Shown piece after piece: positions 5,496-7,302 of a DNA stretch of 64,000 nt. The translations under genes were made by a program, and so were the position numbers. This stretch comes from Thunnus maccoyii (Eukaryota; Chordata; Actinopteri; Scombriformes; Scombridae). Each line of letters begins with the position of its first letter. The stretch's first letter is position 1. The stretch covers positions 13,559,111 through 13,623,110 of the forward strand of contig NC_056552.1 of NCBI RefSeq assembly GCF_910596095.1, given 5' to 3'. Under the pieces are notes generated by a model. That model was not told the DNA's origin and did not search any database. It worked only from the letters and a program-made list of their open reading frames with translations.

Positions 5496-7302
5496 ATGAA
5501 GAGCCCTGTGGTCTATGGCAACCCAGTCATGTTTGGACCGGTGGACTGGAACTATGCAGCTGGTGCCACGGTAAGGAGAGGGAAGAGTGTGGAGGAGTTG
5601 GGGGATGCTGGTTGGGCCAAAGAGAGGGAGAGGATGGCTCATCTTCAACAGCTTCAGCAACTACAGCAACTGCAGCTTCAGCAGCAACAGGTTGGATATC
5701 CTGGGTATGGAGCAATTCCTCCTGGCCAGCCACAGGGACCAGTGATGATAGCAAGTCCTGGTGACCCAATTCCAGCTTCAGGCAGCCCTATGCCAGTACA
5801 TGCCAGCATGATGCCTGTTCATAGACAGGCAATGGTGGCTGCAGGGGGACCAATGCCGCCTCCTGTGCATGTAGCACCTCCATGGCCTGTACAATGGGAG
5901 AACCAAGCTCAAATTATACAGGGCAATGTCTCCCACCAACCCAGCTGGGAATATGATGAGCGGCACAAGGCAGCTTTCACAGACAAGAGTCCTCAAGGCC
6001 AGAATGTTTACTTTCACCCTGGTTCAGAAGATGGTCACCTAGAGTTGAGGATATCTGAATGGAAAGGCAAACATTGTTTCTACCAGGGCCCGGAGGATTA
6101 CAGCCAGCAGGACTACAGCCGAGTGCCACAACAAAAAGACAACCATGACTTCAGGAGTCGAGAAGGACCTGGTCAACTGGATGAGGATAGAAGAAGAAGG
6201 GACAATTATGTTCGAGAAAATGACCATTATGATGAACGCTATGGTCACAGGAGTCACAGAGACTACACAGATTGTGAGCATAAGGACAAATACAAGTATA
6301 GGGATCATTATGACAGGAAATACGATGAACGCTATGATGACAGAGAACAGCAATATTATGAAAACCGGAAACACCGGAAACATGATCTCAAAGGACATGA
6401 CAGCTACAACAGTGAGTATGAAGAATACTATGATCATAAGGACACCTATACTCGCAGAGACAATTACAGGGACAATGATCACTACTATGAACAAGACAGG
6501 GATTATTATGACTCTAAAGAGAGTAAACGTCATAGAGAAAAGGACTACTACCAACGTAGAGAGGAGGACCACTACTATGATGAGCGAAAACATAAGGACC
6601 ATTACTATGACCGGCGTGCCGAGGATCAGCATGATCGCAGAGAATATTTGTACAAAGACAGGGATGTTTATAATCGAAGGGATGAGGAAACTTACCCCAG
6701 TAAAGGAAGGGGCCAGTATGACTCTGAAATAGACGAGCACTATGGTTATAAGGAGAAGGACCACTACCGGTACAACAGATACAAGGATACAGGTGATGAC
6801 AGGAGAGATGAGCACTACAACCACAGAAGGAGGGACAACTACAAAGCAAAGGAGCACTATGAGTTGAGGTCAGTGGACCACTACGACCACGAGAATGAAG
6901 ACTGCCACAATCGAACAGAGATTGACCCCTATGAATCCAGGGAAGGAGGACATTCCCACTACAAAGCCCGAGACAGATATCGAGATTTACGTTCAATGTC
7001 CAGTGATTCGCGATATGAGGAATACCCTAAAAAAGATCGCAAGACACACTGTGAGGAATGGGTTGAGCAGCAGAACCAGAAACTGGTGCTCAGGGAAATG
7101 CGCTCCTTTGAGGATCCCGTTATATACAGGCACAGCGACGAGCAGGAAAAAGGATATGAGTCGAGTGCTGGGAGTACAGGTACAAAACGGGGTCGCAAGC
7201 CTGTTTATGTTGGCTCACTAGATCGCAACAGCTTCTACAGGAAGACTGCTCCAAGCTCCCTGCGAAAGTCACAGTTCGCCACCAACAGGAAGCAGAATCA
7301 AG
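5496..7302 (+). CDS. dnmbp: dnmbp alternative first coding exon: Gln-rich, then Tyr/Asp/Arg/His-rich, about 602 residues
   Basis: One long open frame begins at an ATG with an A at -3; an in-frame TAA five codons upstream supports this start. It runs to a CAAG|GTAAAC donor. The exon ends with a single G, and the next exon starts AG-ATG-ACA, so the junction codon is GAG followed by MTLLSSQ. Human Tuba has Glu at the same place, directly before MTLLSS, so the splice is very likely real. Residues about 48-65 are Gln-rich, 66-135 Pro/Gly/Met-rich, about 195-500 highly charged with repeated D-H-Y-Y-D-type units, and the end is basic. I recognise no domain; it is probably disordered. Long open frames on the other strand and frame are by-products of codon bias. 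The transcript probably comes from an internal promoter. Confidence 0.8.

Follow-up and report, generated by a model that had tools for sequence, protein, structure and literature searches.

A candidate alternative first coding exon of DNMBP (Tuba) in Thunnus maccoyii, predicted to put a tyrosine- and arginine-rich head in place of the N-terminal SH3 domains

The window analyzed here, a stretch of 64,000 nucleotides (64 kb) from Thunnus maccoyii, carries the catalytic half of a gene that on its sequence is a member of DNMBP (also Tuba or ARHGEF36), a Cdc42 activator. All of its exons in the window lie on the + strand. The first of them, 18774..18982, holds the start of the DH (RhoGEF) domain, has an ATG two bases in and is preceded by an acceptor of 14.5 bits, the best in 7303-18780. 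Exons for the DH domain and the start of the BAR domain follow at 19445-19544, 19907-20054, 22513-22712 and 22829-22959, those of the BAR region at 23083-23187, 23389-23517, 23615-23950 and 24110-24298, a probable SH3-5 at 24387-24585, the end of SH3-5 with a linker at 24689-25356, and SH3-6 with the stop codon at 25936-26121. In the translation of this half, Pfam gives RhoGEF (7e-42, residues 40-211), BAR (4.1e-40, residues 244-451) and SH3, with no second SH3 stretch. SH3-5 is 79% identical to its counterpart in human Tuba and matched an HMM made from Tuba SH3 domains (SH3-5 included), while SH3-6 has dynamin-binding protein 4cc2 as its best solved match (7e-27), together with KIAA1010 1uhc (3e-25). 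Over its main blocks, the human protein sequence used for comparison aligns colinearly at 42-85% identity. At the junction 20054-22513 a direct splice is in frame and omits six residues of human Tuba; no small exon was found within this interval. Rfam gave no matches in the window at the gathering threshold.

Further along, exons encoding kringle, EGF-like and trypsin-like domains at 30996-39641 (+ strand) look by eye like HABP2, and many nebulin-type repeats at approximately 41219-52197 (- strand) probably, again by eye, belong to NRAP. An open frame near the nebulin-repeat gene, at 40586-40924 (- strand), combines a long run of Gln with a stretch rich in Ser and Thr. DNMBP adjoins HABP2 and NRAP here, and in human it lies several Mb away from both.

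The four N-terminal SH3 domains and the coiled coil of long Tuba were not found within the 64 kb window; they are encoded directly upstream in the genome. Coding exons for the SH3-1/2 region, placed by alignment to the human sequence, lie at C20:13549906-13550050 and 13551521-13551643. They are followed by a 2,202 nt exon running from the end of SH3-2 to SH3-4 and the coiled coil (C20:13554421-13556622, 2,488 bp before the window), in which Pfam finds two SH3 stretches and for which the best solved match is dynamin-binding protein 4glm. This is the third coding exon found here, and we take it to be exon 4 in human numbering. The intron between it and the DH exon, presumably intron 4 in human DNMBP numbering, is 21,261 bp long and includes a long CA/TG microsatellite at 17406-17743.

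The gene is apparently single-copy. In a search of 782 Mb in 54 contigs, in which only the best candidates were scored, full identity was limited to a single place for the SH3-3/4 exon and likewise for a BAR exon, with next best matches of 44% and 47%, and at the cut-offs applied the search turned up no second DNMBP. A match on contig C2 was set aside as a second DNMBP as it looks like what we take to be ARHGEF38 (Tuba2); this ARHGEF38-like gene (G000:C2 16230001-16330000) lies close to a TET2-like open frame. A teleost duplicate that has lost its SH3 half was likewise rejected, since this gene retains that half and the genome showed no second copy at those cut-offs.

Within the large intron, 7,983 bp from its start and 11,471 bp before the DH exon, lies a long open exon on the + strand (5496..7302; 602 codons and the first base of a split Glu codon), hereafter the head exon. 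Its frame starts at ATG 5496-5498, is free of stops through 7301 and meets a GT at 7303, directly after the split-codon base at 7302. The start had been described as protected, and an in-frame TAA is indeed present at 5481..5483 (+ strand), five codons before the ATG, closing the frame upstream. From stop to stop the frame spans 609 codons, compared with maxima of 231 codons among 2,000 first-order Markov sequences of the same composition and 233 codons when the 64 kb window was simulated 60 times with a Markov model. Its 59 TAN codons are all Tyr, so that TAA and TAG make up 0/59 vs. 52% in intron sequence (log10 P of about −19). The Markov maxima and this bias are the reason we judge the frame not to be a product of chance. 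In the remainder of the intron no + strand stop-free frame exceeds 133 codons.

A coding score, for which 1,512 other DNMBP codons were set against intron triplets in training, points the same way. It is positive in all five segments of frame 0, the sole such frame among the three forward frames, and remains above zero until the frame ends; the 5' flank scores close to zero and the 3' flank below it. Synonymous codons agree marginally better with the base composition of introns than with DNMBP usage (−1.54 vs. −1.57 bits per codon), and this choice by itself does not distinguish coding from intron sequence here. The head exon is coding in character. One could still suspect a dead exon, or a frame left open by chance where complexity is low, from its odd composition and from the lack of any relative among our searches, but the length of the frame, the missing TAN stops and the coding score in every segment of a single forward frame make such an origin exceedingly improbable.

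The head exon ends at a phase 1 donor, CAAG/GTAAAC (7303..7308, + strand), with a score of 7.0 bits, the 97.6th percentile of 4051 GT sites; all bit scores given here are comparative only. With an A at +5, it ranks below seven and above five of the 12 other donors of the gene. The donor of the SH3 exon, CAAG/GTAAGA, is also in phase 1 and is stronger, at 10.4 bits. Joined to the acceptor at 18774, both donors produce Glu-Met-Thr-Leu-Leu (E-MTLLSSQ), and the fit of phase and split Glu codon claimed earlier thus holds exactly, as base 7302 with the AG at 18774 makes GAG, followed by MTLLSSQ.

Left unspliced, the frame would run only three codons past this donor to TGA 7311-7313, which is what a separate single-exon gene of 605 codons, located in the intron by chance, would look like; polyadenylation-like hexamers are also present from 8253 onward. 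We consider such a gene improbable, because a phase-matching donor this strong would fall in the last 36 nt by chance in only about 2% of cases (a hand estimate), and because the head has no domain of its own by Pfam and was found nowhere else in the genome at the cut-offs used.

A second arrangement would make the region an internal cassette of the long form, spliced from the SH3-4/coiled-coil exon into 5488-7302 and on to the DH exon with the addition of 605 residues in frame. The cassette would measure 1,815 nt, with phase 1 on both sides, and the AG at 5486-5487 keeps the frame. That acceptor, however, reaches −0.2 bits, at the 63rd percentile among AG sites, compared with 7.2-14.5 bits for the 12 DNMBP acceptors within the window, and any acceptor further upstream would bring in the TAA at 5481, so that inclusion as a cassette seems unlikely. 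The best acceptor in 5000-5560 reaches 5.4 bits. The nearest upstream acceptor of at least 7.2 bits is at 4599, with 13 such sites within 1-4599 and none in 4600-5495. The in-frame stop and the absence of a strong acceptor in this upstream interval of approximately 0.9 kb favor a first exon, and, as far as the splice sites go, an alternative first exon would fit better than either a cassette or a separate gene.

A first exon would need a promoter, for which the putative location is 5001..5495 (+ strand), together with a 5' leader. This interval has one match in the genome, which is itself, and a transposon-borne promoter was rejected because these 495 bp match only themselves. No CpG island was found near the head start (o/e 0.09-0.22 over 5101-6000). 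The leader includes five upstream ATGs (5256-5410), opening uORFs of 8-30 codons; all five of those in 5200-5495 have a purine at −3, and two of them (5256 and 5405) also have G at +4. They would be a burden on any leader that starts above them.

Three further donor-like sites were noted, at 5468 in the leader (9.7 bits), at 5570, 25 codons into the head frame (9.8 bits), and at 6792, 432 codons in (7.8 bits vs. 7.0 for the head donor; phase 1 and in frame). These sites could lead to head-less or shorter-head forms. A shorter head by way of 6792 is conceivable, despite a coding score that stays positive beyond it. The site at 5468 belongs to the top 0.6% of GT sites and, in a leader from the same putative promoter, could splice directly to the DH exon, with its early ATG. 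The product, a short form without the head that begins at the MTLL Met, would resemble a human isoform of 823 residues and may coexist with the form bearing the head. Since this would leave a coding frame of 602 codons unexplained, and since a donor as good as 5468 is expected about once per 2-3 kb (a hand estimate), we give it little weight as an account of the locus.

The encoded head was first annotated as low complexity over all of its 602 residues. The length stands, but low complexity is mainly limited to residues 46-66 and 201-520. By residue, the segments are 1-45, a Q/L-rich 46-66, a P/G-rich 67-150, 151-200, a D/R/Y/E/H/K-rich 201-520 and a tail, 521-602, of net charge +6. Overall the head contains 66 R, 62 D, 59 Y, 53 E, 40 Q, 39 K and 37 H, for a net charge of −10 (His excluded), and by charge and hydropathy the whole of it plots in the disordered range. 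In residues 201-520 the six residues D, R, Y, E, H and K together account for 238 of 320 positions, with 50 R and 48 Y (about 15% Tyr) and a charged fraction of 0.51; their charges are mixed only modestly more evenly than by chance, a more even pattern arising in 33 of 500 shuffles. Composition and charge-hydropathy agree with the proposal of a tyrosine-rich, charged and disordered segment, and in composition residues 201-520 resemble self-associating low-complexity domains, which are Arg/Tyr-rich, evenly mixed in charge and disordered.

The D/R/Y segment has no significant period: its highest value, 0.156, stays under the 95% level of 0.167 from shuffles. Where stretches of the head resemble one another, 22 of 46 pairs use the same codon and 19.3 are expected, little above chance, and DNA tandem rows number two, both weak. 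This suggests that the composition is kept at the protein level. Among docking motifs, the head has no class I or II SH3 ligands, no PPxY and no NPF; it does have five PxxP, seven Y[DE][DE] and three K[KR]x[KR] patches, one of which is KRGRK.

Relatives of the head were sought in several collections. Pfam returned no family at E up to 1, the only solved-structure match, to NAM8, was weak (E 0.46) and was ascribed to composition, and no second copy was found in the source genome at the cut-offs used. Six pattern matches in prokaryote contigs were tried and none was confirmed, and viral contigs gave no match. Pairwise searches against the ARHGEF38 frame and against this gene's own SH3-linker exon showed no convincing kinship.

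We favor the reading, at a probability of roughly 0.8 for the gene structure, in which 5496-7302 serves DNMBP as a genuine alternative first coding exon, because a coding frame with a closed start and a phase-matched donor sits in this intron of an apparently single-copy gene; our confidence is slightly reduced by the contexts of the upstream ATGs and by the rival in-frame donor. A promoter just upstream of the head exon would drive a transcript that splices from 7302 to 18774, and its product, a partial DNMBP member of 1,468 residues, would consist of the 602-residue disordered head followed by DH, BAR, SH3-5 and SH3-6. The long form would reach the same 18774 acceptor from the exon that runs from the end of SH3-2 to SH3-4, for a predicted 1,689 residues (823 + 866, an exon-length sum). 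The N-terminal SH3 domains of Tuba are the dynamin-binding ones. The head form would lack these four domains, and thus dynamin binding, and would carry the D/R/Y/E/H/K-rich, nearly charge-balanced segment instead. It is predicted to retain exchange activity on Cdc42, binding to membranes and the last SH3, which binds partners; Tuba is described as having Cdc42 exchange activity and six SH3 domains, the last of which binds tricellulin (PMC10453029).

From its composition, the head might serve clustering, binding of charged partners or tyrosine phosphorylation, of which we put clustering first. Tentatively, the Tyr/Arg-rich segment might self-associate or meet charged cytoskeletal or RNA partners, and so cluster the exchange factor away from dynamin-tied sites. 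A comparable composition, with many Arg and Tyr residues and near-balanced charge, is that of Tyr/Arg/Asp/His-rich or mixed-charge low-complexity segments such as the periphilin N-terminus; the likeness drawn here is one of composition.

The closest known system is the long form itself, which shares the DH-BAR-SH3-SH3 half from the Glu before MTLL onward and differs in the four SH3 domains, linker and coiled coil encoded on the three upstream coding exons. The first-pass annotation knew of no SH3-less form of Tuba with a Gln-rich and Tyr/Asp/Arg/His-rich head. Human DNMBP has an SH3-less isoform of 823 residues starting at the Met of the DH exon (MTLL), which shows that dropping the N-terminal half is tolerated. 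It has the same start exon and no added head, whereas 602 residues would precede that Met here. An SH3-less DNMBP form would thus be only partly new, and the new part would be the head. ARHGEF38, with a non-SH3 N-terminus, DH, BAR and two SH3 domains, has the same layout as the predicted head form; its likely first exon offers a frame of only 102 residues, which is Lys/Glu-rich rather than D/R/Y-rich and whose best local match to the head has an E of 0.07 in an unfiltered pairwise search.

Among the open-literature matches listed, none describes the head form, and automated fish annotations may hold it already. One study reports that mouse Dnmbp exon 1 is expressed in trophoblast stem cells, with less expression in giant cells (PMC7409654), a pattern that may be alternative start use, whether of this exon or of another. 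In Xenopus, cuts in dnmbp were directed to the exon 3 region (PMC6399408), and these would fall in the SH3 half if exon numbers correspond.

If the head form is made, it would uncouple dynamin recruitment from both membrane binding and Cdc42 activation, and would lend Cdc42 activation a possible clustering device. Reagents against the SH3 half would then miss it, those against the DH-BAR half would reach both forms, and animal dnmbp studies would need to be read with it in mind. More speculatively, fish, and perhaps vertebrates more widely, may have a second conserved and undescribed DNMBP product, in which a self-associating Tyr/Arg-rich head replaces dynamin binding and the choice of promoter picks between two Cdc42 activators with different addresses.
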